Source: a virus
Reading direction: 5' to 3' (one strand)
Virus record (IMG/VR): IMGVR_UViG_3300021962_000122
Location: 1 to 58,552 of that record
Length of the DNA: 58,552 nucleotides
Below the pieces are notes generated by a model, which was given only the letters and a program-made list of their open reading frames with translations, was not told the origin of the DNA and made no database searches. Shown in pieces: positions 8,994 to 42,301 of the stretch (its first letter is position 1; each line of letters starts with the position of its first letter). The position numbers and the translations under genes were made by a program.

Positions 8994-11900
8994 ATGCCTC
9001 AAGCTGTCCCGTTACCAGATGGTAGTTACGTAGCAATCAGAGAGGGGGAGACCCCGCAGCAGGCATATGCCCGAGCGCAGCAGATGTACCCTGAGGCGTT
9101 TAGAGTAGCAGCCCCGGCAGCGCCAAAAGAAACTACGTTTGGCGGGCAGACCAAAGAATTTTTTAAAGGTCTTGTCCCCGGCGCTATCGGGCTTGTTGAA
9201 CAAGCGGGTACTGGTATCTCAGCACTGTTACCAGAAGAACAAGAAAAAGCCACTCAAAAATACATCAAAGAAACTGCTGCCGCAGCCAAAGCCCCGTTTG
9301 CCGCTGCGCCGGGGTATGAAGACACGGTGGGGCGCAAGTTTGGTGAAGCCGCAGGTTCTATTGCACCGTTCCTTGCCACTGGGCCGTTTGGTCTGGCAGG
9401 GCGTGTAGCCGGATACGGCCTTGGTGTTGGCGCTGGTGCTGGCACACAGGTAGAAAAGTCTGCCGCTGAAGGGGCTACAGAAGGACAGCAAACAGCCGCC
9501 ACCGCACTGGGTGCCGTGGTTGGCGCATCGGAGATGTTTGCCCCTGCACGTATTCTGAAGCGTCTTGGGGAGCCTGTGCTCGAGGGTGCCACGTCGTATG
9601 TGAAACGGGCATTGATGGCTGGCGGTGAGGAAGCCGCCCAAGAAGCCGCAGCACAAGCCGCACAGAATATTATTACCAAAGGTATATACAAACCTGAGCA
9701 AGAAATTATTGAGCAGGTTGGCGAGTCTGCCGCCTACGGCGGTGCGGTCGGTGCGTTGGCACAAGGGTTGTTGGACTTGGCCATTGGTCGTCGTGCGCCC
9801 ACAACCCCGCTTACAGACGAGGTAAAACAAGCCCGTGAAGAGGCGGCAGTGCAGGCAGAACAGGAAAAGATTCGCCTGAACAGTGTCGATTACGCCCAAG
9901 AAGTGTTCCAGAAAACGCAGGAATTGGAAGCTCAGCGTACTGCGCTCAAACAACAGTTGATTCCGATAAAAAAAGGCGTGTCCCCAGAAACAGACTACGC
10001 ACACAACCGCGACATCAACCGCCAGATCGAGGCCATCAACAAAGAACTCAAGCCGTTGGCTGATGAGTACGTGCGTGTCAAGCCTATTCTGAAACGTGCT
10101 GAGGAGGAAGCAAAGATTGCCAAGCTGACTCCGTACGAGTATGCGTTGGGCTTAAAACCAGAAGAAGTAGGGCAGAAACCTGCCGAGCCTGAGCTGTATG
10201 AACAGCAAATTGCCAAGCCGCCTGAGGCACCGAAGGCAGAGGATGTTGCAGCAAAGTATGCCGCACAGAGTATTCAGTTGGCCAATGACCAACAGCTATC
10301 AAGCGAGAAAAAACCAAACGACGCTGTTGCAGACTACGTTTCCTATCTGATGCGCGACCCCATGTTGGCCGATCAGATTGTGAATAAGCGGATGCAGCTG
10401 CCCGGCCTTCCAACTGGTGTGCGTAATTCAGCCGTACTGGACGCGTTGAAACTGCAACTGGCCCCCGGCTTCAAACAAGAGATGGAAACGCGCAAAGCCG
10501 CCTTTGGTGTGCCTAAAGCCGAAGAAGTCAAGACTCCAGAAGTACAGGCGTTCACTTCGTACATGGACGACCTCAAGAGCAAGCGCAACGACGTGGGCGA
10601 CGACATGTTCTTCAAGTACATGGTCGACCCAAAACTGGAGAAGATTGCGGAAGGTAAGCCCCCAGTCATAGCCGTAAACCCTGAGCTGAAACCCTTTGCC
10701 AACATCAAACGGGCAGAGCGTTCAAGGGAAAAAATAAACGGGTTGCTTGACAACATAGACCAAGCAAACGCAGACCGTGATGTGGCTTTGCGTTCTGGAA
10801 ACCGTGACGCTGCCGACGCAGCGTTTGAAAGAGGCCAAAAAGCGTTAGAACAAATTAATGCTTTTGTAGAACCTACACCCACTGGAGAAGTGACAAAGGG
10901 AAGGTTCCCAGCAGCGGCAACAGCCCCAGAATCCAGCATCTATGCCAAAGAAATACTGCGGGTTCGCAACGAACAGAACACGGCGTTAAACACCATTGAG
11001 GACAAGATTGACCGTCTGCGTCGTGGTGAGACATTGGGCAAAGAAGAAATGGCTGCCACATCGCCAGCCATACTGGCTCAGCAAGCCGAAGAAGCCCGTG
11101 GCAAATACATCTCTGCTGTACTGGAGGAAGCCGCTATCCACCGTCGTGTGGCTGGCAAACCTGAGTTGACCTACGACGAAGCCATCAAAGCCGCGTCTCG
11201 TATTCATGATGTGGTGGGGGAGTGGCTTGACCGTGCAAAGGCTGTACCCAAAAAGCCCGAGCTTGAAGAAGTGATCGTGCAGCCCGCGCAGATGCGGGCA
11301 AACAAACTTGTCCGTGGAGCTGTTACCAAACGTGTTTTGAAGACGCGTGATCTGGCCACAACGCCTTTAAACGAAATTGCACGCTTGAGCGACAAAGAAG
11401 TCAAACACTTCAAAGCTCAGATTGCCAAGGTTGTCGACAGCTTATCCGAATTGCCATCCACAGCCACTCGCGAAGTGCCCGTACTGAAGCAGCAGTTTGC
11501 TGCCACCGAAGCGCAGAAGGTTGCTGAAGCCAAAGGCGAGACAGCCAAGACCCTTGGCGGAGAGCTACGCCGCCTGCGTGAATACGTGGGCAACATGATT
11601 GACAAAGCGTTGACACGCAACCCACCGGAAGAAATACAAAATTCACTGGAACGCGTCAAAGAGATCATTGACGACGGCAAAGCCAGTAAAGAGTTACTTG
11701 ACGCAGCCCAGAATCAAGCTGCACGCATTCTGCGTGGCGAAGACCTCGGCAAGCAGGTGTACACAAAACGCGAAGCTGTCCCCGGCAAACGTGTTGTAGA
11801 AAATGTCCCCGGCAGAGAAGCTGAGACACGTTTTGGGGAACGCGGGCGCACATACAAGTCAGTGGGCTACGAAGCCGAACTGGCACCCGAGGGTAGCGCA

Positions 11901-14900
11901 CTGCGTGAGCTTCAAGATGCCATAAAGCTGTACGAACGTACAGCACAAGAAGGTGAAGTTGCGGGAGAAGGCGCAAAAGGCCAAGGGCAGTTGTTCCCAG
12001 AGACACGCAAAGAACTTGGCTACATCCGTGCCACACCAGCCAACTTTGCCAAGTCCCCACAGATCAAACCTGTATGGGAGGCGTTGGAACAAGCACGCAA
12101 GCTCAAGGCAAAAACAGAAGCCAACCAGAAAGCTCGTTCTGTCAGAGACAAACAAGGCTTTGCGCAAGTTGAAGCAATAGAAGAACAACTTGAAGCCATT
12201 AAAAACCAAATGCAGTTTTTCTTGCTTAAGCCGGGAGACTTCAATATTGGTAAATACTCAAATGCAGACATTGCAAAAATGTTTGCGTCATATCCAGAAG
12301 CAGGCGTTACAAAAGAAGACAAGCTGCTGATGGATCGGTACTTGCAAGTGTCTAGACAAAGTATTGGTAAAACAAAGGATCAACAAGAAAAAGCCATGTC
12401 CGTGTTTACTGCGGAAGAAAAGGCACGCGTAAATGAGTTAATCAGCGACTTCAACACAAACAAAATCCCTGAGTACGAAAAGAATGTTAAGCAGGCGCTG
12501 CAAGCGCTCTCATTGGGACAGCGTCTTGAAAGCACGAATAACCGTTTAGTTGAGTTGATGCAAGACAACAATGCGGCTGTGCGTAAACAATCAGAAGCAG
12601 CCCGCAAAACTGTTGAACCACTACTGGAGAAGTTAAAGCTTATCAAAGCCAGTTTGCGTAATTCTGTTTTGTTAACTGACGGCCAACGTGCAATGCTTGA
12701 TTCTGAAATTGCGTTGCAGTCACAACGTGGCGCATACAAAGACGCCATGGCCAAGGCAATGGGCAAAGCCCGTCAACGCCTGAGCGATACGTTGGGTGAG
12801 TTGCTTGACCCTGAAATTGAACGCGCACGTCGTGCGTTGAAAGCAGCCAAGACACGTTTGGCCACAGTCGAGTCGCAGATTGAAACGGCAAAGAAAGAAA
12901 TGACTGAGGGTACTGGCCAAGCGCCAAACCTGATTAACAACTTGCAAAAAGTTCAAGGGCTTGTTGAGAACATTGAGAAGGCTGAGACCGAACTGGCTGA
13001 CTTGCAAGAAGCACGCTTTGGTGAAATTGAGAACGACGTTGTTGTTACCGAAGCCATGCTGGACAAAGACCTCAAGGCAGAACGTGAGTACTTAGAACTG
13101 CTTGAGCGACAACTGGCTGATATGCGCAAAGAACCGTTGACTGCTGTAGAGCTTGGTGGTCGTGGTGAACTGGGCAAGTTGAAGTATCCGTTCTCTGCAC
13201 AACGTTTGGAAACACAAGTAAAGGCACAACAAGCGGCTGTTGATGAAGCGCAAAAGCGTGCTGAAGAATTCCAAAAAGACGTGCAGGTTTGGTGGCCCAA
13301 AGTTACTGCCGCATTCAAGAAAGATGGAATCAGCATCAAAGACTTGCCCGGCGCAGTGTTTAAGAAAGGCCGCAAAGTTGCTGAGATTGTTACGCCAGAA
13401 CAAAAACGCCTTGATGATTTACGTGACAAAGGTGTGCAGGCTGCAAAAGAAGTTGACGAAGCCGCAGTGCGTCAGCGGGTCAAAGACAAACAGATTCAAT
13501 TGTTCGATGACGAAATCTTTGATGCGCGTGGTGAAGTGCAGGCGTTTATGGGGCCTGAGGACATGGAAAAGTTGGCCGACATCATGGCTGACCCCAAGAC
13601 TACCAACGTCAAACGTGTACAGGCTACGCTCAAGCTGGGCGCTATGCAAAAAGTTGCTTCGTTGGAAGCACAAAAACAAGCGTTCATTGAGGGCAAGCCT
13701 GCACCAAAACCAAAAACTGCTACTGTGCCGAGCACCGTTGCGTTGGCGGCGGCTAAACCGTTTCGTACTGGCTCAGGCGTAGCAAAAGCGTTTACTCCAG
13801 CAGAAATGGATGAGCTGGCTCGCGCTGATATACGTGATGCCAATGAGTTGGCCAAAAAGATTCTGGGTACAAAAGCGCCGCAGTTGCCAGAACCAAGCAA
13901 ACGCAAGCAAGGCAAGATGCCTGACCCCAACCTTGGTTTGTTTGATGACTTTGAGTTTTCTCGCGGCACACCAGTTAAAGGTCTGACCAAGGCTGAGCTT
14001 GAAGCCGAACTCACTGCTGGTATGGGCGAGCCAGTTACTGGGCGCAAGATAGAAGCGATGGTGTCCAATAAATTGGCGGTGTATGAAAGTGTTCAAGATT
14101 TCCTTGACAAGCAACCAAAATTAAAAGGTGTAGGTAAGTCCAAATACGAGGGTTTAATCCCAGCAGATGCCAAAGGCTTTGTGCAAGATGGTAAAGCGGT
14201 ACTGTTTGCCAACAACATTGGTAAAGGCCACGGACTGGGCGTACTGCTCCACGAAGTCGGCGTGCATTTGGGATTCCGCAACTTCTTTAACGAAGGCCAG
14301 TACAACGCGTTGGTTAAGACAGTCAAGAACTGGGCAAACAAAACTGAAGACTCATTGGAAGCGCGTGTTGGTAAAGCCGCCGTGCGCAGGGTTGAGGCTG
14401 CTAACACTCCACCACACCAGATTGACGATGAGTTGTTGGCATACGCTGTTGAAGAAGCCATGCAGATGGGTGTAGAGCCTGTTGGCGTTAAAGGCGGCAA
14501 CGCAGTCAAAAACTGGTTGAAGATGGTGGTCGATGGGTTCAAGAAAGCGCTTGAGAAGTTTGGCATCACTTCTAAGAACTTGACTGCTGGCGACTTGGTT
14601 AACTTTGCCTACGGCGCAGCACACCTTGAACTCAAGGGAACTTGGCACGGCACAGGTGTTAAATTTGATATGTTTGACCATACGTACATGAGCACCGGGT
14701 CAAACGCACAAACGTATGGTTGGGGAACATACCGTGCACAAAAGTACGGCACTGCGCAGTCATATCAAATTGATGCAGCTACAAAACAGTACGACGATTG
14801 GGTTGAACGCCCAGATATACAAGCATGGCTTGAATCACAAAAACCTAAATTTACAGGTAAGTTGCCATCTGGTATTCCTGAGCAATTTTTAGTCATGCCT

Positions 14901-17900
14901 TTGGTTGAAGCCAATAACGCGTACGGAGGTCAAAACCCAAATAAAATTTTTAAAGAAGCTGTTCAAGGCGAAATTGAAAACATTGAAGAGGAAAGAAAAC
15001 AGTTTTCTAATTTAAGTAGTGCGCCGCGTGCTGTACTTGCATCACAAGTATCGCCTGCTAGGGCCGCAATAGCAGCGGCACAGTCTTCTGCACGCGTAAC
15101 TGCCAGACCCATAACTGCAACACCAGTTAGAAACTATGGGTACGGGCCTGTAACTAAACCTTTAAGTTGGCGTGTGGAATGGATGCGGGGGTTGTCTGAC
15201 GCAGAAGTAGATAAAAAAATTGAAGAGCTTAAAAAGTTTGCAGAAACTGCTGACGAACATTTAGAAGCGGTCAATCAATTTCCTGTCTATAAAGGCAAAG
15301 AATACATTGAGTTGTACAAAGCGTACCCCACTGCCGCAAAGGTCATACACGCATTTGACAAAATGATGGACGCCAACCAAGGCACACCACCGTCTTGGAA
15401 AGAAGCTATTGCCAGTGTGAAAGCTGAAGCAAGCAAAAGCGTAAAAGAGTTGGGGGAGTTTTTTGAACGTTTTACATACGGAAAAGACCCGTACACAAAA
15501 CAGGTGTACGACGAAGCAAAAGAAACTTTACGTGACATTGATGCGTTTGACATAAACGACTTTAAGTACAACCCTCCGTCTGGGCCACCTGTACCTGAAC
15601 CAGCAGGTTACATGATGCGCACGTTGCACACACGTCCTGAGAACGAGTACATTCTTTATGACAGCCTTGCAGACAAACAACCAGAAGTTGTTAAAGATGC
15701 GTTTAAACGTATCTACGATAATTTAGATAAAAAACAACAAGCTGTTTTTAACCGTTCAATAGGCTTTGTACGACCAGATCGGCAAAACGGGCGCGATTTG
15801 TATAACGCTTTAAGTGCCGTGCTTGAACAAGGCGGTATGCCTAGTAAGTTGTGCGACATGTTTGCATCTGAAATGCTGCATGCCGAAGGTGTTGCTGGTA
15901 TTAAGTTTTTTGACGGCGTGTCAAGATACTCAGCAGCACAAGGTACTCCGGGCACATACAACTACGTTGACTTTGGTGACAAAGATGAAGGTGCGCAGAT
16001 CATTGCCACCGACATTAATCCGATCAATCAAACACAGCCAATGCAAAAAAGCGAGATACTGTTCTCGCGTTCAGAAGAGTTTACAAACCCTGAGCTTGCC
16101 AAACAAAGCAAGTTTATTGCCAAAATTGTGGCCAAGCAAAGAAGCTGGTCTGAAAAGATTAAAGCCAATACAACCGGGCTGGCTTTTGAAACACAGCTTG
16201 TAGATAGATTTGCAGGCTTCGAGCGTTTGGCCAAATACATGGATCCGGTCAAAGGCACGCAGATGATGTACTACCTGCGCATGTATGACCAACGCATGAA
16301 TTTTGTGTCTCAAGCAGTATCCAATGGCGCACCGGCAATCGTGGAGAAAACACGGCCTGACGGCAAGGTTGAGCGTTTGATTGAGAGCAAAGAGAGCGCC
16401 AACATCCACAATGTTGTTCAGATTTTGAAAGAAGCCCAGCCAATGGTTGGCAACGCAGAAGCTGTAAACCGCATATTCACTTTGTACATGGCCGCTATTC
16501 GTGCGGACAACAAAGGATTGTCTTCATTGAACTTTGGTGAAGACGTTACACAAGAACTGCTCAACGAAACCATGGCCGCCATAAAGGCCACACCCGGCTT
16601 GGAAAAAGTTTTGAAGCAAGCTAAAGATGAGTACAACGCCTACAACCGTAATTTGGTTGAGTTTGTTGTCAGCACTGGCGCTCTTTCCAAAGAAGTCGGC
16701 AAGCGTCTGCTGAGCGAAAACGATTACATACCGTTCTACCGTGAACGCAATGGCGTGGCTGAGCTTGTTATTGGCAACGAATCTCCTATCCGCATTGGTA
16801 GTATTGCTGAGCAGCCGTATCTGCATGAACTTGTTGGTGGCGACAGGCCCATCCTCGACTTCATGACCAGCTCGGTGCAGAACACCAATCTGTTGATGGA
16901 CATGGGTATGCGCAACTTGGCAACCAAGAACGCTGTGTTTGAGCTGGTTGATTTGAAAGCTGCCAAGTTTGTGAAAATGTCTGCTGGCCCAGACGTTGTT
17001 AAATTCAAAGACAACGGAGAAGATCGCTACGCAGTGCTGGCTACCGAAAAAGTAAAAATTGGCAACAAAGAGTTTGATACTGGCGTTCCTGCCGACATAT
17101 TGGTCAAAGGCATGGAGGGCATCCCAACACAGATGCCAGCAATGTTACGCGTCATGGCGTTCCCAGCACAGATACTGCGCAAAGCTATTACCCTCAGCCC
17201 TTTGTACACAGCCAAACAGTTGTTCCGTGACTCCGTGGCCGCGCCTATTCTTTCTGGCGCAGACTTCATGCCTGTCATTGGTGCGCTGAAAGAAATCAAC
17301 TCCACCACCAAGCAGACGCTTGAGCGCCGTGGTGTTACCGGAGGCCAGCAGTTTGTTGGTGGTGCCGAAGATTTGACCAAGATTCTGCGTGATGTGTCTG
17401 AGGGCAAACCGGGCTGGATGACTGCGCTTGGTAAGCTTGAAGCCATGAGTATGGAAGCAGATGCCGCAACACGTCGCGCCCAGTACAACAGCTACATTCA
17501 GCAGGGCCTGTCTGAGATGGAAGCAACACTGCTGTCGTTGGAGTCCATGAACTTCAACAAGCGCGGCGCGTCACCATCAATCCATGTGGCCAACTCCCTG
17601 ATACCTTTTTTCAACGCACAGATTCAAGGTCTGAACGTGTTGTACAAAGCGTCTATGGGCAAGATGCCATTCAACGATCAGCTGCGTATCCGTGAAAAAA
17701 TGATGCAGCGTGGTGCCATGATGGCAGTTGCAAGCCTTGCTTACGCCGCCTTGATGCAGGACGACGAAGCTTACAAAAACGCCACACCCGATCAAAAATA
17801 CGGCAATTGGTTTATTCGTGTGCCGGGTTTAGACGAACCCATCAAACTCCCTGTGCCGTTTGAAATCGGTTACATCTTCAAGGCGTTGCCTGAGGCAATA

Positions 17901-18656
17901 CTCAACAGCATGGTGAACGAGCACGGCGGTGAGGAAGCGGTCAAAGCTTTCAAACAAATCCTGCTTCAAACAGTTCCCGGCGGTTCGTCTTACGGCATCC
18001 CGCAGATCATGAAACCCGCCATCGAAGCAGGACTTGGCAAGTCGTTCTACACAGGTAGGGACATCTTGTCTGCGCGAGAGAAAGAGTTGTTGCCTGAAGA
18101 ACAGTTCCGCGCCAACACATCCGAGCTGGCTAAAGGTATTGGTAAAACACTGGGTATCTCTCCGATTGTGTTTGAGCAACTTGTCAGTGGTTACACCGGC
18201 ACAATGGGTTTGGCATTTATGCACGCACTTAGTGTTGGCGTGCCTACGGATGAGAGTCCTGATAAAGCAGTTAAACGTTTGTCAGAGTACCCAATCGTTG
18301 GTGGGGCGTTCCAACCAAACGACGCTGGTGGCATCATCAACAGCGTGTACGAGCGCATGAATGAAAATCTCAAGGTCAAGAACACCTTCAATAAGTTGGC
18401 ACAAGAAGGCAGAATGTCTGAAGCTATGGCGTTGCTTCAACGTCGTGGTAATGAGTTCATGCAAGCAGACTTGGCGAACAGTTTCAAAGCCAACATGAAC
18501 AAACTTGCTCAGGCTGAACGGGCAATTGCAGCATCCAACATGTCCCCCGAAGCCAAGCGCGAACAGCTGGACAAAATCAGGAAGATAAAGATCGCCGTTG
18601 CTCAAACGGTGAGAGAGGTTTCCGATAAAACCATACGCCTAACAAGCCCCTTCTAA
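8994..18656 (+). CDS. Giant polyvalent virion protein (metallopeptidase-like, ADP-ribosyltransferase-like and LPD-like domains)
   Basis: A single 3220-residue frame. It begins with VPLPDGSYVAIREGETPQQA and a Gly/Ala-rich hydrophobic segment (about 48-260). Long charged coiled coils occupy about 270-1560. At about 1750 lies LLHEVGVHLGFRNFF, a metallopeptidase-like helix in which the histidines are spaced HExxxH rather than HExxH. At about 1883-2335 lies an ADP-ribosyltransferase-like domain: WHGTGVKFDMFD, YGWGTY, then GIKFFDGVSR and GTYNYVDF. From about 2350 to the end is a large helical region (LFRDSVAAP, PFFNAQIQGLNVLYKA) resembling the LPD domains of phage polyvalent proteins. Such proteins are thought to enter the cell with the DNA. 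I see no vRNAP signature despite the N4-like size. Confidence 0.85.
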   Translation: MPQAVPLPDGSYVAIREGETPQQAYARAQQMYPEAFRVAAPAAPKETTFGGQTKEFFKGLVPGAIGLVEQAGTGISALLPEEQEKATQKYIKETAAAAKAPFAAAPGYEDTVGRKFGEAAGSIAPFLATGPFGLAGRVAGYGLGVGAGAGTQVEKSAAEGATEGQQTAATALGAVVGASEMFAPARILKRLGEPVLEGATSYVKRALMAGGEEAAQEAAAQAAQNIITKGIYKPEQEIIEQVGESAAYGGAVGALAQGLLDLAIGRRAPTTPLTDEVKQAREEAAVQAEQEKIRLNSVDYAQEVFQKTQELEAQRTALKQQLIPIKKGVSPETDYAHNRDINRQIEAINKELKPLADEYVRVKPILKRAEEEAKIAKLTPYEYALGLKPEEVGQKPAEPELYEQQIAKPPEAPKAEDVAAKYAAQSIQLANDQQLSSEKKPNDAVADYVSYLMRDPMLADQIVNKRMQLPGLPTGVRNSAVLDALKLQLAPGFKQEMETRKAAFGVPKAEEVKTPEVQAFTSYMDDLKSKRNDVGDDMFFKYMVDPKLEKIAEGKPPVIAVNPELKPFANIKRAERSREKINGLLDNIDQANADRDVALRSGNRDAADAAFERGQKALEQINAFVEPTPTGEVTKGRFPAAATAPESSIYAKEILRVRNEQNTALNTIEDKIDRLRRGETLGKEEMAATSPAILAQQAEEARGKYISAVLEEAAIHRRVAGKPELTYDEAIKAASRIHDVVGEWLDRAKAVPKKPELEEVIVQPAQMRANKLVRGAVTKRVLKTRDLATTPLNEIARLSDKEVKHFKAQIAKVVDSLSELPSTATREVPVLKQQFAATEAQKVAEAKGETAKTLGGELRRLREYVGNMIDKALTRNPPEEIQNSLERVKEIIDDGKASKELLDAAQNQAARILRGEDLGKQVYTKREAVPGKRVVENVPGREAETRFGERGRTYKSVGYEAELAPEGSALRELQDAIKLYERTAQEGEVAGEGAKGQGQLFPETRKELGYIRATPANFAKSPQIKPVWEALEQARKLKAKTEANQKARSVRDKQGFAQVEAIEEQLEAIKNQMQFFLLKPGDFNIGKYSNADIAKMFASYPEAGVTKEDKLLMDRYLQVSRQSIGKTKDQQEKAMSVFTAEEKARVNELISDFNTNKIPEYEKNVKQALQALSLGQRLESTNNRLVELMQDNNAAVRKQSEAARKTVEPLLEKLKLIKASLRNSVLLTDGQRAMLDSEIALQSQRGAYKDAMAKAMGKARQRLSDTLGELLDPEIERARRALKAAKTRLATVESQIETAKKEMTEGTGQAPNLINNLQKVQGLVENIEKAETELADLQEARFGEIENDVVVTEAMLDKDLKAEREYLELLERQLADMRKEPLTAVELGGRGELGKLKYPFSAQRLETQVKAQQAAVDEAQKRAEEFQKDVQVWWPKVTAAFKKDGISIKDLPGAVFKKGRKVAEIVTPEQKRLDDLRDKGVQAAKEVDEAAVRQRVKDKQIQLFDDEIFDARGEVQAFMGPEDMEKLADIMADPKTTNVKRVQATLKLGAMQKVASLEAQKQAFIEGKPAPKPKTATVPSTVALAAAKPFRTGSGVAKAFTPAEMDELARADIRDANELAKKILGTKAPQLPEPSKRKQGKMPDPNLGLFDDFEFSRGTPVKGLTKAELEAELTAGMGEPVTGRKIEAMVSNKLAVYESVQDFLDKQPKLKGVGKSKYEGLIPADAKGFVQDGKAVLFANNIGKGHGLGVLLHEVGVHLGFRNFFNEGQYNALVKTVKNWANKTEDSLEARVGKAAVRRVEAANTPPHQIDDELLAYAVEEAMQMGVEPVGVKGGNAVKNWLKMVVDGFKKALEKFGITSKNLTAGDLVNFAYGAAHLELKGTWHGTGVKFDMFDHTYMSTGSNAQTYGWGTYRAQKYGTAQSYQIDAATKQYDDWVERPDIQAWLESQKPKFTGKLPSGIPEQFLVMPLVEANNAYGGQNPNKIFKEAVQGEIENIEEERKQFSNLSSAPRAVLASQVSPARAAIAAAQSSARVTARPITATPVRNYGYGPVTKPLSWRVEWMRGLSDAEVDKKIEELKKFAETADEHLEAVNQFPVYKGKEYIELYKAYPTAAKVIHAFDKMMDANQGTPPSWKEAIASVKAEASKSVKELGEFFERFTYGKDPYTKQVYDEAKETLRDIDAFDINDFKYNPPSGPPVPEPAGYMMRTLHTRPENEYILYDSLADKQPEVVKDAFKRIYDNLDKKQQAVFNRSIGFVRPDRQNGRDLYNALSAVLEQGGMPSKLCDMFASEMLHAEGVAGIKFFDGVSRYSAAQGTPGTYNYVDFGDKDEGAQIIATDINPINQTQPMQKSEILFSRSEEFTNPELAKQSKFIAKIVAKQRSWSEKIKANTTGLAFETQLVDRFAGFERLAKYMDPVKGTQMMYYLRMYDQRMNFVSQAVSNGAPAIVEKTRPDGKVERLIESKESANIHNVVQILKEAQPMVGNAEAVNRIFTLYMAAIRADNKGLSSLNFGEDVTQELLNETMAAIKATPGLEKVLKQAKDEYNAYNRNLVEFVVSTGALSKEVGKRLLSENDYIPFYRERNGVAELVIGNESPIRIGSIAEQPYLHELVGGDRPILDFMTSSVQNTNLLMDMGMRNLATKNAVFELVDLKAAKFVKMSAGPDVVKFKDNGEDRYAVLATEKVKIGNKEFDTGVPADILVKGMEGIPTQMPAMLRVMAFPAQILRKAITLSPLYTAKQLFRDSVAAPILSGADFMPVIGALKEINSTTKQTLERRGVTGGQQFVGGAEDLTKILRDVSEGKPGWMTALGKLEAMSMEADAATRRAQYNSYIQQGLSEMEATLLSLESMNFNKRGASPSIHVANSLIPFFNAQIQGLNVLYKASMGKMPFNDQLRIREKMMQRGAMMAVASLAYAALMQDDEAYKNATPDQKYGNWFIRVPGLDEPIKLPVPFEIGYIFKALPEAILNSMVNEHGGEEAVKAFKQILLQTVPGGSSYGIPQIMKPAIEAGLGKSFYTGRDILSAREKELLPEEQFRANTSELAKGIGKTLGISPIVFEQLVSGYTGTMGLAFMHALSVGVPTDESPDKAVKRLSEYPIVGGAFQPNDAGGIINSVYERMNENLKVKNTFNKLAQEGRMSEAMALLQRRGNEFMQADLANSFKANMNKLAQAERAIAASNMSPEAKREQLDKIRKIKIAVAQTVREVSDKTIRLTSPF

Positions 18657-21687: not shown

Positions 21688-21897
21688 TTATTTAAAGTCG
21701 TCGGTTGCGTGCTCTACGCCTTGCTGAAAGCCTTCTTCAAACCCACTTTGGTATATGGTTTCTCTGTTGTCTATCAGTGCCGCCATGCGCTCAACAAGCG
21801 TCTCAATCCAGTCTGGAGGAACTCTGTCGAAGCCCATGATGTACACGTACCGCAAAAGCTCGTTGTCTGTCAGTTGCTTAGGTTGAACGCCTTGCAT
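21688..21897 (-). CDS. Small hypothetical phage protein
   Basis: 69 residues (LTDNELLRYVYIMGFD, PPDWIETLVERMAALID), acidic and helical. The ATG at 21897 has TTGGAGAAAAAC just upstream. The start overlaps the end of the HTH gene and the stop is 14 bp before the primase start. A small replication accessory protein is possible; no known domain is recognised. Confidence 0.65.
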   Translation of the reverse strand: MQGVQPKQLTDNELLRYVYIMGFDRVPPDWIETLVERMAALIDNRETIYQSGFEEGFQQGVEHATDDFK

Positions 21898-22148
21898 GTT
21901 TTTCTCCAAGCCTCGTCGGCTGTGCTTGATGTTTGTAGGATTTTAAGAAGTGCGCTTGCCGATGGTCGGTAAGCGACAAACACTTCACCACCGCCGAACC
22001 AGTTGTAAACAGATTGGCGTGAAACACCAAGTGCCTGAGAGATTCGTACGACAGAGAAGTTGTGGTGAACAGCCCAGCGCCCCAGTTGGTTGCCCAACGT
22101 CTTCGGCGCTTTCATGACCATGTTGATTGTTTGTTGTGAGTAAGCCAT
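21870..22148 (-). CDS. Small helix-turn-helix DNA-binding protein
   Basis: 92 residues with a clear HTH: VVRISQALGVSRQSVYNWFGGGEVF, similar to Cro/transposase-type helices, followed by ASALLKILQ. The ATG at 22148 (MAYSQQTINMVM) is preferred; longer frames run into the tRNA-like element. It could be a regulator of the replication block or an accessory to the primase directly downstream. Confidence 0.7.
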   Translation of the reverse strand: MAYSQQTINMVMKAPKTLGNQLGRWAVHHNFSVVRISQALGVSRQSVYNWFGGGEVFVAYRPSASALLKILQTSSTADEAWRKTCKAFNLSN

Positions 22149-22170: not shown

Positions 22171-22274
22171 CTGCACTGGTGGGATTCGAACCCACGGAGT
22201 TCCAAGCATTGCTCTTGACAGCCCTTGAAACTCTGTAGTCAAGTCACCAATAGACCAGACTCTGGCACAGCATC
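22171..22274 (-). tRNA. tRNA-like element, atypical class-II-like, identity unassigned
   Basis: The minus strand carries a perfect T-arm (GTGGG-TTCGAAT-CCCAC, 22195-22179). In one fold the other parts are an acceptor GATGCTG against CAGTGCA (five pairs, two mismatches at the end), TG at positions 8-9, a CCA/TGG D-stem with GG in the loop, an anticodon stem GACTT/GAGTT with two wobble pairs, loop GACTACA, and a roughly 33-nt variable arm. The loop lacks U33 and would place CTA as anticodon. An alternative CTTGA/TCAAG stem gives a 10-nt loop. This is either a degenerate tRNA or an unusual tRNA-like RNA; the T-arm is the firm part. Confidence 0.5.
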
Positions 22275-22294
22275 CGCTTTCCCCCCAAAACTCC

Positions 22295-31911: not shown

Positions 31912-32424
31912 TCAGCCTCCAAACATTTTCTTCAGCTCATCATACAAAGCTCGCGCCTGTTTTAAGCCGATGTTGTTGATAATTGTTTCTGCATCCCACT
32001 GAGTTGTTGCTGTAGTTTGAGGTGCCAGCGCGGCAATGCCAGCACTCTTTGGCTTGGTAACTATTTTGTTGATGCGTTTGCCCTCAGCTTTAAACTTCTT
32101 GGTTGCCTTCAGCGGTGTGTATGTGGGTACGATTAAAGTGAGCCGTCCGTTGTGGTCACGCACCATTTGTTTTTGCTTTACAAATTGTGTGAGCAGTGAC
32201 CCCACAGAGGCACGCTTGAACCCACGCTTCTCCAGCGCATCACATATCTCACCGCCGTTTTTGCTTGGGTTGTTCTTGACATAGTTGAATGTCTCTTGTG
32301 TCACATTGTTGGTTGGTTTGAATGCTTGGGGTAATGCTTTCACTTTTTTCTCCTGTTGAATTTGTTGGTCGTCTTTTTCCCATGATGAAAGCGCAGTCGA
32401 TAGCGCGGTTTTCAAATCAGGCAT
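31912..32424 (-). CDS. Winged-helix-like DNA-binding protein
   Basis: 170 residues. The region QETFNYVKNNPSKNGGEICDALEKRGFKRASVGSLLTQFVKQKQMVRDHNGRLTLI reads as a winged helix (three helices then a beta wing). A basic linker follows, and a C-terminal helix (AETIINNIGLKQARALYDEL). Likely a regulator or replication accessory; direct evidence is only the fold pattern. Confidence 0.65.
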   Translation of the reverse strand: MPDLKTALSTALSSWEKDDQQIQQEKKVKALPQAFKPTNNVTQETFNYVKNNPSKNGGEICDALEKRGFKRASVGSLLTQFVKQKQMVRDHNGRLTLIVPTYTPLKATKKFKAEGKRINKIVTKPKSAGIAALAPQTTATTQWDAETIINNIGLKQARALYDELKKMFGG

Positions 32425-37138: not shown

Positions 37139-37772
37139 TTTCTATCTCCCCTTTGTTGTTGAATCTCCAACCGTTGATGTATATGAGTTCTTTAAAGTAT
37201 TCTTCACTTGTATAGCCCTCATACTCTTGCCTCAAAGCGTCATAGATTTCATCGGCGTACTCTCGTGCGTGACGAATCGCAAACTCTTCAAGCTCACACA
37301 CCAAGCGTTCGGTGTCGATTGCTTGGTCTAACTCATGCACCAGTGCACCTTGCAAGATGCCGTGCTCAAGTACATCGCCGTTGTCCTCACCCAAAGACGC
37401 AAAGCACTTGATGCCGTCGTAACTCATCGTCCCTGAGTGGTTGTAGTAGAACGACCTGCGTGACACGCCCATCGTTTTGTCTACCCACTGGTTACGAATA
37501 AGCTCGAGCAGTACTGTGTACCTTGCAAACTCAGGATGGTCTGGTGTAGCGAAGTGCTCAATGAACCAAGGCAGATGTACATACCCCGTCCACGAAGCAC
37601 CATCGCCTTGAGAAGAGAACCCGCTGAATTGAATCTCATCAATCATGAAACCCTTAGCGCTTCCATCTTCTTTGAAGCGTGCATACACACACTCGTACCA
37701 ATCATCAGGCGGCTCGCCATATAGTTGTATGGCGTTAGCTTTTGCTTGTGGTGATAAGTCTTCAAACTCCAT
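37128..37772 (-). CDS. Conserved phage protein of unknown function
   Basis: 214 residues. EIQFSGFSSQGDGASWTGYV is a recognisable phage phrase, followed by FASLGEDNGDVLEHGILQ. The ATG at 37772 has GGAGAAACTTG. Its role is unknown. Confidence 0.65.
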   Translation of the reverse strand: MEFEDLSPQAKANAIQLYGEPPDDWYECVYARFKEDGSAKGFMIDEIQFSGFSSQGDGASWTGYVHLPWFIEHFATPDHPEFARYTVLLELIRNQWVDKTMGVSRRSFYYNHSGTMSYDGIKCFASLGEDNGDVLEHGILQGALVHELDQAIDTERLVCELEEFAIRHAREYADEIYDALRQEYEGYTSEEYFKELIYINGWRFNNKGEIENGV

Positions 37773-38316
37773 CAAGTTTCTCCAAAAGTTTCTTCAATGT
37801 CTCCACCATCTTCTTCTCAAGCACCTCCTCCACAATTTCTTGTACCCTGTCTACATCAGGGTAGTCGTTGTCACTCAGGTACATCTCTATCTTGTCGTCA
37901 ATGTCATACGCATCAAACTTGTCATCGAAGTCGTAGTCAGTGATGGCATCATGTATCTGGTCGCTGATGTCTGTGTCACGAACCTCTCTGCGTACTTGCT
38001 CTGTGATGATGTCGTCAACTATTTCTCTAACGCCATCTATCGTCAGATGTTCCTCTGTGTCGTTGTGTTCATCTATTGATTCCTCTGTGATGTCTTTGAT
38101 TGCCTCTCTGAATGAATCGTCGATGTACTTCACGGCACTATGAGCTTCAAGCACGGCGCTGACTTTCTCGTTGACTTGCGTGTTGATGTGCTCATTGATT
38201 GCGTGGAGTAGTGTGTGGATAAGCGTCTGCTTGGGTTGTGGTTGAGGCGTTGCCTCGGGTGTGGTTTGTGTTGCTTGTTCCACGGCGTTTACTTCTGTGT
38301 TTGTGATTTGATTCAT
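37762..38316 (-). CDS. Very acidic coiled-coil protein
   Basis: 184 residues, rich in Asp/Glu and Ile (DISDQIHDAITDYDFDDKFD). Heptad-like helices near both ends. ATG 38316 with AAAGGAAAGCAATC. A DNA-mimic or scaffold-type early protein is possible. Its leader contains two hairpins (38342-38392). Confidence 0.6.
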   Translation of the reverse strand: MNQITNTEVNAVEQATQTTPEATPQPQPKQTLIHTLLHAINEHINTQVNEKVSAVLEAHSAVKYIDDSFREAIKDITEESIDEHNDTEEHLTIDGVREIVDDIITEQVRREVRDTDISDQIHDAITDYDFDDKFDAYDIDDKIEMYLSDNDYPDVDRVQEIVEEVLEKKMVETLKKLLEKLDGV

Positions 38317-38365: not shown

Positions 38366-38392
38366 AACTGGCAGACACCATGTCTGCGAGTT
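38366..38392. repeat. 27-bp palindromic element, copy 1
   Basis: AACTGGCAGACA-CCA-TGTCTGCGAGTT; one mismatch in the 12-bp arms. It lies 50-76 nt upstream of the acidic gene. On the plus strand it runs into TTTT. Confidence 0.85.
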
Positions 38393-38434
38393 TTTCTGTA
38401 ATTTCTACGATGAGTGTTCCCGATGTGCCTTGGC

Positions 38435-38554
38435 TTACAAGTAGCACATGACATGCACACGCCACACGAACAGGTCGAGGGCGAGCACGATGACTGCGGT
38501 GATATACGCAAGCACAAAGGCTATGCGTATGGGGGTGAATGTTTGTAGTGTCAT
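38435..38554 (-). CDS. 39-aa single-pass membrane protein
   Basis: MTLQTFTPIRIAFVLAYITA then VIVLALDLFVWRVH; one hydrophobic helix. SD GAGGAAC. Start overlaps the upstream stop (ATGA). It resembles the other small membrane peptide at 31.8 kb in size and position in the early block, but not in sequence. Confidence 0.6.
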   Translation of the reverse strand: MTLQTFTPIRIAFVLAYITAVIVLALDLFVWRVHVMCYL

Positions 38555-38745
38555 GAGTATGTGTTCCTCTTTGCTTGTTCTAGGTATAGCTGTGTCAGGC
38601 GTTGTTGAACTTCTGCCCACCCGTTCACTTTCTCCCAGTACAGCACTTGCAGTGCCATGCCGACAGACCAACGCACATCATCTTCATCCTCCATGTGTTT
38701 GACTGCTTCCTCAATTAACTCATCAATATCAATTTCAATCTTCAT
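38551..38745 (-). CDS. Small acidic hypothetical protein
   Basis: 64 residues (MKIEIDIDELIEEAVKHMED, DVRWSVGMALQVLYWEKV), helical. Overlaps both neighbours; function unknown. Confidence 0.65.
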   Translation of the reverse strand: MKIEIDIDELIEEAVKHMEDEDDVRWSVGMALQVLYWEKVNGWAEVQQRLTQLYLEQAKRNTYS

Positions 38746-38959
38746 TTACTTCTCCCTCAGTTGTTCTCATAAAGTCACGCAGTTCTGCAAAGTTGTAGAC
38801 GAAGCGTCCATGCTCATCACGGAACCGCCACTCGTCACACAGCGCACACCCTGCCTCGTATGTGCGGCATCGTTTGGCAAAGCACACACGCAGGAAAGCA
38901 AAGCCTGCCTCCGTTACATACTTTGTCTTCGCCCTTCGGCGTATCTGTCTGACTTTCAT
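38735..38959 (-). CDS. Small basic Cys-containing protein
   Basis: 74 residues, basic N-terminus (MKVRQIRRRAKTKYV) then CFAKRCRTYEAGCALCDEW, which could hold zinc (C-x4-C...C-x2-C). SD GAGGAGGTTTAA. Possible small nucleic-acid-binding protein. Confidence 0.6.
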   Translation of the reverse strand: MKVRQIRRRAKTKYVTEAGFAFLRVCFAKRCRTYEAGCALCDEWRFRDEHGRFVYNFAELRDFMRTTEGEVNED

Positions 38960-39133
38960 TTAAACCTCCTCATTCTTTTTAAACCAATACTCCCGCGCCC
39001 ACATCGTTTGGAGTAACGCAATGCCTGCGTAGACAGGTTCAATCAGGTTGTCCCTCTGCATCCTGTCCACCGCAAACTTGGTACGCCGCGCCATGTACTC
39101 ATGGAACGGCAACGCAAACAAGTCATCATTCAT
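38960..39133 (-). CDS. Small hypothetical protein
   Basis: 57 residues, MNDDLFALPFHEYMARRTKF then AGIALLQTMWAREYWF. ATG 39133 with GGGAGAGAAGA. The frame is open back to 39175, but that start lies inside a palindromic element. Confidence 0.6.
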   Translation of the reverse strand: MNDDLFALPFHEYMARRTKFAVDRMQRDNLIEPVYAGIALLQTMWAREYWFKKNEEV

Positions 39134-39159
39134 TCTTCTCTCCCAAAGTTGTTTATACA

Positions 39160-39186
39160 AACTCGCAGACACCATGTCTGCCAGTT
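39160..39186. repeat. 27-bp palindromic element, copy 2
   Basis: AACTCGCAGACA-CCA-TGTCTGCCAGTT. It covers the stop codon of the upstream zinc-ribbon gene and lies 27-53 nt before the start of the 57-aa gene. Confidence 0.85.
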
Positions 39187-39823
39187 ACTTACGCCGAACC
39201 AGTAGCTCGGGCACTTTCATGCGTTCTTTCTCCTCCTTCCTGATGCTCAACCACCTGTCACGCAAGGACTCGAGTCCGAACTCGGACACCAAGTCCCACC
39301 AGTTTCGTTTCTCATTTTTATATTTGTGTGGGTCTGCCTCGAAGTCGAGCATGATGCGCCCCCTCTCCCGCTTGAGTATGTCCTCGTACTTCTCGAGCAA
39401 CCCCTCATGTGCTTGGTTCCCTACCTCTTGTGCGTAGCGTCTCTGTGCCCGCACCTTGTGTATCTCGTAGCCCATCGGTGCGAGGGCGTCTTTCAGTTGT
39501 TTGCGCCACTGCTCTACCCACGCTTCGTATCGGGCGCGGCTTTGTACCAACAACGCCATGCGGTGGCGTTCCTCCAGTATGAGCTTTGCCTTGACCTCAC
39601 TGATGTCACCACTCACCACCATGTTGTGCAGTTGTCGTGGCGTTTGCTTGCGTGGGGGCTTGCGTTTGGGTTGGCAGTCTTTGCAGTTCTTTGAGATGAT
39701 GGTCATGAGCACCTCACCTTTCATGCCCCTTGCGTGCATTTGTGCACGGGATAAACGCTTTTTGAATTGGGCGAGAGGCTTGGTTGTCCCGCACTTTGCA
39801 CATTTTTTGTAATCGTTTAGCAT
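39185..39823 (-). CDS. Zinc-ribbon protein, possibly DNA-binding
   Basis: 212 residues from ATG 39823. The N-terminus has KKCAKCGTTKPLAQF and later NCKDCQPKR (two CxxC pairs, zinc ribbon). The rest is a long basic helical stretch (EERHRMALLVQSRARYEAW). It is the first gene to the left of the iteron-rich region, so it may act there; that is inference from position only. Confidence 0.65.
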   Translation of the reverse strand: MLNDYKKCAKCGTTKPLAQFKKRLSRAQMHARGMKGEVLMTIISKNCKDCQPKRKPPRKQTPRQLHNMVVSGDISEVKAKLILEERHRMALLVQSRARYEAWVEQWRKQLKDALAPMGYEIHKVRAQRRYAQEVGNQAHEGLLEKYEDILKRERGRIMLDFEADPHKYKNEKRNWWDLVSEFGLESLRDRWLSIRKEEKERMKVPELLVRRK

Positions 39824-39851
39824 GAGAAAGCCCTTATGTTTCAGTCGACAA

Positions 39852-40216
39852 TACCCACTTGTTGCTCGAGCATACCCACCATTTTTCGTGATGGGACAAA
39901 CTAGTGGGTGCGGTGTTTTACCAGTAAACATCGAGTATTTTAACCCTCCATCCCTCGATACCTATCTGATTTCTGAAGAACAGAAACTTTTTTTCTTTTC
40001 TTTTTTAATTTGTGTCCACTTGTACCCATATATATATATATTTATCTTTTTATCTCTTATATATATGTAGGTATTGTGGGCTGGACACTGGCTGAACGCC
40101 CATGAACGCTGGAAAAAAAGCGCACCCACTTGTGTGGCAAGGTGTGAAAAATGGTGGGTATGATACCCACTACTGTATAAAAACACAGTAGAAGGATTAG
40201 TTACTGTATGTGGGTA
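39852..40216. other. Candidate replication origin: iteron-like repeats with AT-rich tract
   Basis: No gene is seen between 39824 and 40236. The block holds eight GTGGGTA/TACCCAC-like cores in both orientations (39852, 39873, 39904, 40023, 40123, 40154, 40164, 40210); the copies at 39904, 40023 and 40123 differ by one base. Two abut as the perfect palindrome GTGGGTA-TGA-TACCCAC (40154-40170), and TACTGT...ACAGTA lies at 40171-40190. An AT-rich stretch with long TA runs spans 40028-40068. Iterons around an AT-rich stretch are the layout of many replication origins. An alternative is a regulatory hub for the leftward operon. Confidence 0.5.
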
Positions 40217-40236
40217 CAGTTTATTGTGGTTTTTTG

Positions 40237-40263
40237 AACTGGCAGACACGATGTCTGCCAGTT
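40237..40263. repeat. 27-bp palindromic element, copy 3 (perfect)
   Basis: AACTGGCAGACA-CGA-TGTCTGCCAGTT with perfect 12-bp arms, 10 bp after the stop of the 61-aa gene (40273). No T-run follows on the minus strand, so a terminator role alone does not explain it. Confidence 0.85.
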
Positions 40264-40272
40264 TGCCTGTTG

Positions 40273-40458
40273 TCAGAGGAGTTTGAGTTGTCTGCATGAC
40301 GCTTTGACTTCGTTCCATTCCTCTTTCCATCGTGCCTGTCGCAGGGCTTCGGCACGCCTTGGGTCTTTGCGCCTGAGTTCCTCGTCTGCTTTGATTTGGG
40401 CTTTGAGGGCGCTGAGCTTGGCTTGCACGCCCGAGGGGATTTGTTTTCTGATTTGCAT
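40273..40458 (-). CDS. Small helical protein
   Basis: 61 residues, MQIRKQIPSGVQAKLSALKA then a charged helix rich in R/E. SD AAAGGAAAGCC. Function unknown. Confidence 0.65.
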   Translation of the reverse strand: MQIRKQIPSGVQAKLSALKAQIKADEELRRKDPRRAEALRQARWKEEWNEVKASCRQLKLL

Positions 40459-40468
40459 GGCTTTCCTT

Positions 40469-40576
40469 TCAGACGAATAAGTACCAGATGGGTGAGAACA
40501 AACGCTTGCAAGCGATGGCTTGGCGGTACTCAGCTTGCATGATTTGGCGGATTTCTTTGAGTTGAGATTTGGTCAT
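40469..40576 (-). CDS. 35-aa peptide gene
   Basis: MTKSQLKEIRQIMQAEYRQA then CKRLFSPIWYLFV; amphipathic helix with a hydrophobic C-terminus. SD AAGGAATAAATC. Ten bases before the next gene. The coding call rests on spacing and SD. Confidence 0.5.
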   Translation of the reverse strand: MTKSQLKEIRQIMQAEYRQAIACKRLFSPIWYLFV

Positions 40577-40579
40577 GAT

Positions 40580-40756
40580 TTATTCCTTGGTTTGATTGGC
40601 TTTGCGGGCGAAGTACTCGGTGATGAATGAGGGTGCTTGGCACTCTTGGGCAAGGGCGCACATCGCCCAGTATTCATCGGGGTTGATGGTTTCTTTGGTC
40701 GTGTGTTCCATGCGGATGAGCACCGCAAAGATGAGGTCGAGTTGGTTTGGGTTCAT
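40580..40756 (-). CDS. 58-aa hypothetical protein
   Basis: MNPNQLDLIFAVLIRMEHTT, then INPDEYWAMCALAQECQAP; helical. SD AGGAAAGCATC at good distance. Three bases separate it from the 35-aa gene. Confidence 0.55.
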   Translation of the reverse strand: MNPNQLDLIFAVLIRMEHTTKETINPDEYWAMCALAQECQAPSFITEYFARKANQTKE

Positions 40757-40782
40757 GATGCTTTCCTAAAGTTGTTTGACAG

Positions 40783-40820
40783 AAAAAAGAATAGCGGTGG
40801 GACTCGACATCCACACCGCT
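40783..40820 (-). terminator. Intrinsic-terminator-like hairpin
   Basis: On the minus strand AGCGGTG pairs with CACCGCT (40820-40793) and is followed by ATTCTTTTTTC. It is placed after the first gene of the leftward operon. Confidence 0.6.
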
Positions 40821-40827
40821 TTGAAAA

Positions 40828-40854
40828 AACTGGCAGACAAGATGTCTGCGAGTT
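40828..40854 (-). terminator. 27-bp palindromic element, copy 4, with T-run
   Basis: On the minus strand AACTCGCAGACA-TCT-TGTCTGCCAGTT followed by TTTT. It overlaps the stop codon of the 131-aa gene (TAA at 40853-40855), so here it has the structure of an intrinsic terminator. Confidence 0.75.
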
Positions 40855-41248
40855 ACTGAACAGAAGCCAAGAAACGGCGCTTTTGTGCCGTAGTCAGCTT
40901 CTCGTATGACTCAACGAGTTTGGTAACAGCGTCCTTCTTCTTGCTTGTCTGTGGCTTCTTGCTGTCCTTTTGCACATCCACAAAGATATTGTTGAGAATG
41001 CGACTGACTCGTCTTTCCTCAGCTGTGCCATGCCCGAATGCCCAGCCACGCTGACCCTTGTAAGGCTTGCGTGTGGTGGTGGACAACTCAGACACATAGA
41101 ACACGACATAAGGGCGTGCTTCTGCTCGTGTGCCTACACCATTGGCAAGCAAGGTGTCGAGCAAAGTGGCAGACTCGATGTCTGCGAGTTTCAGGGTAGG
41201 AACGATTGCCCGATATGTGTTCGGGTTGATTGCTGTTGCGAGTTTCAT
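40853..41248 (-). CDS. First gene of the leftward early operon, unknown function
   Basis: 131 residues from ATG 41248 (MKLATAINPNTYRAIVPTLK) with SD GGAGAGCTATCT. A beta-rich middle (ARPYVVFYVSELSTT, GQRGWAFGHG) and a Lys-rich C-terminus (DSKKPQTSKKKDAVTKLVE). First gene behind the strongest promoter; probably expressed early and highly. Its own sequence contains a degenerate copy of the palindromic element. Confidence 0.7.
   Translation of the reverse strand: MKLATAINPNTYRAIVPTLKLADIESATLLDTLLANGVGTRAEARPYVVFYVSELSTTTRKPYKGQRGWAFGHGTAEERRVSRILNNIFVDVQKDSKKPQTSKKKDAVTKLVESYEKLTTAQKRRFLASVQ
41164..41190. repeat. 27-bp palindromic element, copy 5 (degenerate, intragenic)
   Basis: AAGTGGCAGACT-CGA-TGTCTGCGAGTT lies within the 131-aa gene and codes LADIESATLL. 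The arms have mismatches. Confidence 0.65.
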
Positions 41249-41260
41249 AGATAGCTCTCC

Positions 41261-41287
41261 AAAAGAAAAACCCCGCAACTGGCGGGG
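41261..41287 (-). terminator. Attenuator-like intrinsic terminator in the early leader
   Basis: On the minus strand CCCCGC-CAGTT-GCGGGG (41287-41271) is followed by TTTTTCTTTT (41270-41261). It lies between the promoter near 41.33 kb and the first start codon at 41248. Confidence 0.75.
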
Positions 41288-41323
41288 CGACAGACCGACT
41301 GAGTTCCCCCAATCGATAAATCT

Positions 41324-41332: not shown

Positions 41333-41638
41333 CAAACGAGTTTCACAATACCCTTGACATGAAAAATCGTAATACCTTAGACCCCACCATACCCCCACCA
41401 CCCCATATGTCAGCGAGGCAGGCGTTGTCCCGTGAACACTACTCCCCTCCGATTCCCAGCACCCCAGTAATACTTAACCCCTACACCCCCTAAATTTTTC
41501 TAAAAATTCCAAACAACCTGTGTCAAACGTTGGACAACCGTATCCGTAAAAAAACCCCCCGGCATCGCTGACGAGGGGTTGAACAGTTGGGTCACAACTG
41601 AGGAGAGAAGCAAGTGCTTGCGCAACTGCTGGAAATAA
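41333..41638. other. Divergent intergenic region
   Basis: About 300 bp without a gene between the two divergent operons. The part 41385-41490 is C-rich on the plus strand. An AT palindrome AATTTTT-CT-AAAAATT lies at 41493-41508, and a minus-strand terminator at 41548-41580. I found no clear plus-strand sigma70 promoter; one must lie here for the terminase operon. Confidence 0.6.
41548..41580 (-). terminator. Minus-strand intrinsic terminator facing the structural genes
   Basis: On the minus strand AACCCC, a 16-nt loop, GGGGTT, then a T-run (seven T in all). No minus-strand gene lies upstream of it, so it would stop antisense transcripts from the terminase region. Confidence 0.55.
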
Positions 41639-42301
41639 GTGTACACTGCAAACCAACGCGCAACAACCCTGTGTAAAAACACAGCTATCAAAATGTTGGA
41701 GCATTTGGTGCAGTTCTCCCCAGACGACGCCGGTCTGGACGATTTCGTAGGTATTAAAGCTGTTTCGTCAGCGGATTTACTGTCGGCGCAAATAGCCACG
41801 GCAGAGTTGTTGGATGAGCTGGGTGTCACGCCAGACAACCAGATCAGTTACGAAGCCCAGACACAGGCGGCTCGCGACGCGTTCAAAGTGGTGATTGCCG
41901 ACAAAGACTCGGACGAGCAAAAGACAAAGCTGCTCCAGTTAAAGACCCCCGCCGCTGTGCGCCACATCACGGGCATGCTGACAGCGTATGACTGGGAATT
42001 TGTACAGATGGCCAAAGAACTCCGTGGGTACACGGTGGCCAAGTTGTTTGAGGAAACTCAGTCCCCCAACGCCAACATCCGCTTGAAGGCTCTTGGTCTA
42101 CTTGGCAAAGTTACGGAAGTCGGGCTGTTCACCGACAAGGTTGAGATCAAGAAAACCGACCTGACCGACGAAGAGATCGACAAGAAGCTCAAAGACAAGC
42201 TTGCTGCCTTCATGGGCGTGCAAGACGTGGAGCCGATTGAAGACATAGAAATAAACGAACCGCCAGATGAAACTCAGCAACCTGACGCTCAGCCCGACTG
42301 A
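41639..42301 (+). CDS. Terminase small-subunit-like protein
   Basis: 220 residues. Helical; the C-terminal part (ALGLLGKVTEVGLFTDKVEI, LTDEEIDKKLKDKLAAF) is the pattern of phage small terminase-like proteins upstream of TerL. The GTG at 41639 follows GGAAATAA; the ATG at 41693 lacks an SD, so the start is uncertain by 18 codons. It overlaps TerL by 35 bp. Confidence 0.7.
   Translation: MYTANQRATTLCKNTAIKMLEHLVQFSPDDAGLDDFVGIKAVSSADLLSAQIATAELLDELGVTPDNQISYEAQTQAARDAFKVVIADKDSDEQKTKLLQLKTPAAVRHITGMLTAYDWEFVQMAKELRGYTVAKLFEETQSPNANIRLKALGLLGKVTEVGLFTDKVEIKKTDLTDEEIDKKLKDKLAAFMGVQDVEPIEDIEINEPPDETQQPDAQPD

Follow-up and report, generated by a model that had tools for sequence, protein, structure and literature searches.

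The virus record IMGVR_UViG_3300021962_000122 of IMG/VR (positions 1 to 58,552, the whole 58,552-nucleotide stretch being called the window here) carries five copies of a 27-bp palindrome in its leftward early operon. Related phages have palindrome families of their own at fixed places of the same operon, and these are repeated DNA dyads that are uniform within a genome, compensate between their arms and co-vary with gene A, as the gene that opens this operon is called here. From these comparisons it appears probable that a type-specific DNA-binding protein encoded by the phage, most likely the gene A product, uses the palindromes as double-stranded DNA operators.

Five palindromes in the leftward block of the window

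The structural block of the window is read rightward, and small genes and replication genes form a leftward block, whose first 3 kb contain all five palindromes (Table 1). A pattern count against shuffled sequences (0.01 matches expected) confirmed these copies, four of which match AACTSGCAGACA-N3-TGTCTGCSAGTT exactly while the remaining one has two mismatches. When the window was searched for the 17-bp core with up to two mismatches, the sole extra match was at 56404 (two mismatches), about chance level. The placement given in the original prediction, with four copies extragenic or overlapping stop codons and one intragenic, was borne out, the intragenic one being copy 5 inside gene A. Equally correct were its statements that copy 3 is perfect, which here means 12/12 pairs, and that, on the leftward strand, a clear T-run is found in copy 4 alone. 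The combination typical of an intrinsic terminator (a GC-rich stem and a T-run on the transcribed strand) is not seen in the other copies. The S positions of the pattern read G/G, C/C and G/G in copies 1, 2 and 4, without compensation, and as RNA those pairs would thus be mismatched; an RNA-family search of the window gave no match.

Palindrome families at matching positions in related phages

Scans of IMG/VR recovered 35 stretches with the exact pattern and 51 with a looser one, and the exact-scan stretches, read with their flanks, display the same five positions in orthologous contexts (for site 1, position and flanks are kept for example at 6322 of L058 and 5645 of L061). Among these relatives there is free variation both in the three bases at the centre and at the S positions, with G/G, C/C, G/C and C/G all present at the latter, which is already odd for an RNA stem. 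Many of the 80 loci collected by terminase are without the window motif; in L121 and L081 the same positions are occupied and the arm is changed in concert, to ACAGACA and GTGGACA respectively, from the GCAGACA core of the window. A de novo search for repeated dyads to the left of the terminase in 62 loci, some of them from near-identical contigs, identified a within-genome palindrome family in 58, with scores of 5-23 versus at most 4 in 30 shuffles. The families sit at matching positions in the leftward early operon, and their core varies between phages and is nearly uniform within one: besides the three named above, the cores include GCGGACA, GGGGACA, CGGGTCA, TGGGACA, GTGCGACA, TGAGACA and TGTGTCA, and further CGATTCA, AGTATCA, GTGGTCA, GGGGTAG, GGGGGTA, GGGATAG, GGGAAGA, GGGGAGA, GGAGAGA, CGGGGGA and CAGAGAG.

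In seven IMG/VR records examined largely or fully, including the window, three to six sites were found per record, in the early operon only. The stretches examined of DSL-LC04, 023Pt_psg01, HTVC027P and HTVC023P hold no convincing palindrome family. A site can also change within a conserved neighbourhood, since L070 and L071 (terminase distance 0.014) have CGGGTCA versus GGGGACA at the orthologue of site 3, beside nearly identical gene DNA. The original prediction had named absence or randomness of the copies in related phages, or arm substitutions that do not compensate, as grounds against it; with these points examined in the relatives, the idea was not refuted. In the literature library searched, no paper on this palindrome/gene A system was found.

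A perfect single copy of the window palindrome was observed at 3603-3629 of L056, a 525-kb contig from an uncultured Proteobacteria genome, between two chromosomal genes. A bacterial origin of the palindrome was considered and rejected, as it occurs in one of 84,980 species genomes, in a single copy with no phage genes nearby, and this copy is regarded as unrelated or unexplained. The palindromes were also considered as seams of gene-cassette exchange, for which single examples looked good; a systematic count of homology-block ends at palindromes failed against shifted controls (4 vs up to 22 on one side, 19 vs up to 18 on the other), and because the count is no better than the controls on either side, the idea is not claimed.

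Core type follows gene A type

A first leftward gene of such size is present at the gene A place in 60 of the 62 loci, as assigned by a mechanical start rule, and it is extremely divergent and fast-evolving. Across 53 genomes, core distance correlates with gene A distance when terminase distance is held constant (partial Mantel r 0.375, p 0.0005), as opposed to r 0.055 for core against terminase with gene A held constant. Phages with near-identical terminases may differ in both gene A and core (L071/L072, terminase distance 0.005; L086/L088, 0.012; L131/L114, 0.029), and conversely L070 and L082 share gene A type and the core CGGGTCA with L125, L127, L130 and L135 at terminase distances of 0.17-0.19.

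The relationship also held in a prediction test on new contigs picked solely by gene A bait. The core CGGGTCA was found in 24/24 new contigs with the CGGGTCA-type gene A, several of which are close relatives, so that these are not 24 independent events. The matching core accompanied the TGGGACA-type gene A in five of six contigs, the sixth, with a 44% identical gene A, having CGGGACA/TGGGACA, and the GGGGACA-type gene A in four of six, the other two, at 60% identity, having shifted cores.

Another phage or host protein, for example a conserved helix-turn-helix (HTH) protein, might instead bind the sites, with gene A merely linked to them. This would accommodate the lack of a recognised DNA-binding motif in gene A, and two small HTH or winged-HTH proteins are encoded by all or most of the longer genomes checked. 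However, both candidates (the HTH protein at 21870-22148 and the winged-HTH protein at 31912-32424) were rejected as specificity factors, as their recognition helices (SRQS/TVYNWF and SVGSLLTQF) stay constant while the cores differ. Genes B-I of the window are not universal, being absent from many genomes that have sites, and a host protein is not expected to differ between nearly identical phages. We therefore regard a different binder as unlikely.

Arm pairing points to sites in duplex DNA

Pairing between arms was analyzed in 209 distinct sites from 53 genomes. Of the 1045 cells at core positions 3-7, 1030 hold Watson-Crick pairs, despite cores that differ between genomes, and pairing drops towards background past position 9; because the search required near-palindromes, the pairing percentage is inflated, while the type of mismatch is not biased. 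G-U mismatches are no commoner than A-C mismatches (3 vs 6 at positions 3-7; 21 vs 32 at positions 2-8 on the leftward strand), and there is thus no RNA-type wobble bias. A left arm matches the right arm of its own site (0.939) as well as that of another site in the same genome (0.938), and matches right arms of other genomes at 0.556 for odd-centred and 0.638 for even-centred sites. The arms thus compensate at the level of the genome, which points to a trans-acting factor reading both half-sites. Each half-site spans about 7 bp (positions 2-8 from the dyad), and the half-site centres are 10-11 bp apart, i.e., one helical turn, which would place both subunits of a dimer on the same face of the DNA. 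Overall, the pairing pattern strongly supports the view that the palindromes act as DNA-level dyads and not as hairpin-RNA elements.

Alternatively, the palindromes might form RNA hairpins in the polycistronic transcript of the leftward operon, serving there as intergenic stems for processing, stabilisation or termination, possibly with a gene A product that binds RNA. Such hairpins would explain why most copies directly follow stop codons, why three copies have a 7-bp core stem with a terminator-like score, and why copy 4 has a T-run. They would not be expected to show only 3 G-U pairs in 1045 with no excess over A-C on the transcribed strand, to tolerate G-G and C-C at the S position, to lack T-runs in most copies, or to covary by genome and not by individual site. 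Several even-centred genomes, moreover, have self-complementary central dinucleotides (cg, gc, at) at the would-be loop. RNA-level function is accordingly improbable, and the RNA-processing sites suggested in the original prediction are disfavoured both by the pairing and by the association of the sequence with a linked regulator-like gene, while the operators it had also suggested gain strong support, since the arms compensate across all sites of a genome and the sequence follows that one gene.

Distribution of sites and Planktothrix phage Pag-Yong1

A comparable system can be seen in Planktothrix phage Pag-Yong1 (OL906435), whose terminase is 44% identical. Its genome has 35 copies of CGGTTCA-N3-TGAACCG when as many as two mismatches are allowed, against an expectation of 0. 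Noncoding DNA makes up only 8.7% of the genome, yet 21 of the copies are at or between gene ends, and several lie exactly 3 nt past a stop codon. The gene at 38932-39495, in the gene A position, is the only significant profile match among the open frames (E 1.4e-4, to the C-terminal module), and has a site just upstream.

The spread of sites across the Pag-Yong1 genome would suit a centromere-like function, or replication or packaging sites, as in a dispersed parS/iteron system; the partition sites of phage-plasmid N15 are likewise dispersed palindromes of element-specific sequence. On the other hand, no ParA was found in 11 genomes, the sites of the window's group are limited to the first part of the early operon, and placement follows gene ends, which makes this function very unlikely. 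Least probable of all is a mobile palindromic mini-element (similar to repetitive extragenic palindromic (REP) sequences and bacterial interspersed mosaic elements (BIME) or to miniature inverted-repeat transposable elements (MITE)) that spread through the operon, as also raised in the original prediction: near-identical copies do recur in extragenic places, but the same positions are filled in dozens of phages, which largely refutes it, the window's group has no copies past the operon's first part, all copies of a genome change together, and a site can change in place while the gene DNA next to it stays homologous.

Gene A product and flanking signals

AlphaFold (AF2) models of gene A proteins (predicted local distance difference test, pLDDT, 77.5 and 88.0) predict an N-terminal part of about 90 aa, in which a long helix and a second helix precede a beta-hairpin and a third helix, and behind it a C-terminal two-helix module. 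In the gene A alignment this module takes several forms (..LTAAEKRRFLASI, ..LASTAVAQAFAK, ..INALVDRALSQITFE, ..AVSILRAVAK) that are seemingly shuffled among N-terminal types, suggesting a separate domain for contact with a partner or within a dimer. Gene A matched no family of Pfam, PHROG or NCBIfam, no relative was found among solved structures, and tblastn with three gene A types against 50,697 phage records gave no match.

In nearly all genomes listed a site is centred 4-25 nt past the gene A stop, mostly 9-13 nt, and most also have a site 24-132 nt before its ATG or 53-211 nt inside the gene, which in the other phage types is the counterpart of site 5, so that sites bracket gene A in almost all genomes. 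Upstream of gene A in the window, sigma-70-like matches are not above chance (2 found, 4.1 expected), and leftward transcripts would meet a strong terminator-like hairpin with a T-run at 41553-41581; many relatives have similar inverted repeats at roughly -700 to -780 relative to their terminase, and the operon may therefore have a terminator-containing leader.

Table 1 Palindrome sites, gene A and upstream signals of the window
Feature	Position	Strand	Description
Palindrome site 1	38366..38392	.	AACTGGCAGACACCATGTCTGCGAGTT; between the small leftward genes 38435-38554 and 37762-38316
Palindrome site 2	39160..39186	.	Overlaps the stop codon of gene D (39185-39823)
Palindrome site 3	40237..40263	.	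9 bp past the stop of gene C (40273-40458)
Palindrome site 4	40828..40854	.	Overlaps the stop codon of gene A
Palindrome site 5	41164..41190	.	Within gene A; centre 71 nt downstream of its ATG
Gene A	40853..41248	-	Opens the leftward operon; 131 aa; proposed regulator that binds the palindromes
Intrinsic-terminator-like hairpin	41270..41288	-	GCCCCGCCAGTTGCGGGGT-TTTTCTTTTG; leader just upstream of gene A; consensus match only
Sigma-70-like promoter match	41386..41413	-	CTGACA-16-TATGGT; sole leftward match upstream of gene A; weak

Proposed regulation by the gene A product

With the palindromes as operators of the gene A product, the early operon would be read through from its rightward end early in infection, and gene A protein would be made first. 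As a dimer, it would then bind the site at its own start, the site past its own stop and the sites between the next genes, and would act both as an autoregulator and as an elongation roadblock that turns the early operon down in the manner of a 'stoperator'. The roadblock is suggested by the placement of the sites and by analogy with the stoperators of Cluster A phages. If the protein reads only the core of its own type, it could shut off an incoming phage that shares this type and not one of another type, and such silencing would favour the observed swapping of gene A together with site type; this superinfection effect is speculation that fits the swapping.

Several observations weigh against this interpretation. 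A few genomes (e.g. L103, L079) have weak or incomplete palindrome families. The correlation between gene A and core could partly reflect linkage, because gene A and the sites share one 5-kb block, although distant terminase backgrounds can have identical cores. None of 51 gene A proteins has a recognised DNA-binding domain or a noteworthy match to an HTH family, the gene A models have no Foldseek match in PDB and BFVD (none below E 0.1), and the Pag-Yong1 gene A detectably shares the C-terminal module only. Finally, the window's group has no site at the presumed promoter, all sites being inside the transcribed stretch, and classical promoter repression is thus not supported.

A broader, tentative possibility, which we hold to be rather doubtful, is that a widespread group of apparently strictly lytic aquatic phages carries a portable 'identity code' made of gene A, as a new DNA-binding protein family possibly with a new fold, and its matching palindromes. 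The pair would be exchanged between near-identical phages, and a resident phage would shut down only co-infecting phages of its own type, i.e., heteroimmunity without lysogeny. With about 20 putative protein/operator specificities on nearly one phage backbone, the phages offer a natural library for a protein family that is unnamed in the databases searched. They make testable how a regulator and all its sites shift specificity together, and whether lytic phages exclude their own kind by operator identity. A palindrome core repeated after stop codons also offers a cheap sequence signature for typing these uncultured phages.

Other features of the window

Two copies of CTGTRTAAAAACACAG were noted, at 40173-40188 in the noncoding stretch left of site 3 and at 41669-41684 in the divergent early/late start region; 0.08 matches to CTGTNTNNNNANACAG are expected. 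About 15 related contigs also contain the exact pattern. We take the sequence to resemble the LexA box of beta- and gammaproteobacteria, and the copies could reflect SOS-linked control or hint at the host group. Roughly 400 bp of noncoding DNA at 39830-40236 is rich in AT and contains a poly-AT tract, terminator-like hairpins and a perfect 17-bp inverted repeat (CATACCCACCATTTTTC) with its copies 258 bp apart; this stretch is a possible replication origin. A possible degenerate tRNA was noted at 22180-22290, upstream of the HTH gene, where the minus strand (GTTCGAATCCCACCA) looks like a tRNA in its T-arm and 3' half, although ARAGORN found none there. A single open reading frame of 3220 aa occupies 8994-18656, and the corresponding place in Pag-Yong1 is annotated as 'large polyvalent protein'.

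Comparison with known systems

The closest parallels are the stoperators of Cluster A mycobacteriophages such as L5 and Bxb1, in which one phage protein recognizes many sites per genome, mostly in short intergenic regions and off promoters, with a consensus that differs by phage and follows the repressor; sites flank the repressor gene, and the repressor is proposed to stop elongation (PMC6550527, PMC9283540). The sites described here are similarly multiple, mostly intergenic and type-specific, presumably with a single binding protein, flank their putative regulator gene and vary with gene A. In contrast to the asymmetric 13-mers of Cluster A, which are oriented with transcription and bound by a monomer, they are dyad-symmetric over 17-27 bp with paired core positions 2-8, and the putative gene A regulator has no recognised HTH, unlike the Cluster A repressor with its N-terminal HTH. 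No integrase, resolvase or ParA (PF00589, PF00239, PF13614) was found in 11 genomes or records, and no lysogeny is therefore evident, unlike in the temperate Cluster A phages. In the window's group the sites are also few and confined to the early operon, and whole types are swapped between nearly identical phages. With its symmetric sites, and with no recognised HTH and no integrase, resolvase or ParA found in the 11 genomes, the palindrome/gene A system is not a member of the Cluster A stoperator family.

REP/BIME elements share the position of palindromes right after stop codons within operons, but they are variable and dispersed, whereas the sites here are few, at fixed orthologous positions, have phage-type-specific cores and are not host-wide. 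The parS/ParB systems of plasmid prophages such as N15 also have dispersed, element-specific palindromes with a cognate reader protein, a role that gene A would fill here, and differ in their placement and in having ParA and ParB, of which no recognised homologue of the latter was identified. A prophage or classical immunity repressor was considered and rejected, as no integrase, resolvase or ParA was found in the 11 genomes or records, and no CI/HTH_3 protein above the cut-off and no lysogeny module were seen. The CI/Cro operators of lambdoid phages lie at divergent early promoters beside a CI-like HTH repressor, unlike the sites described here, which are in a transcribed operon after stop codons; nevertheless, both systems have a 17-bp core with one-turn spacing and phage-specific palindromes that covary with a regulator, a dimer in CI/Cro and probably also in gene A, a covariation that corresponds to heteroimmunity in lambdoid phages.

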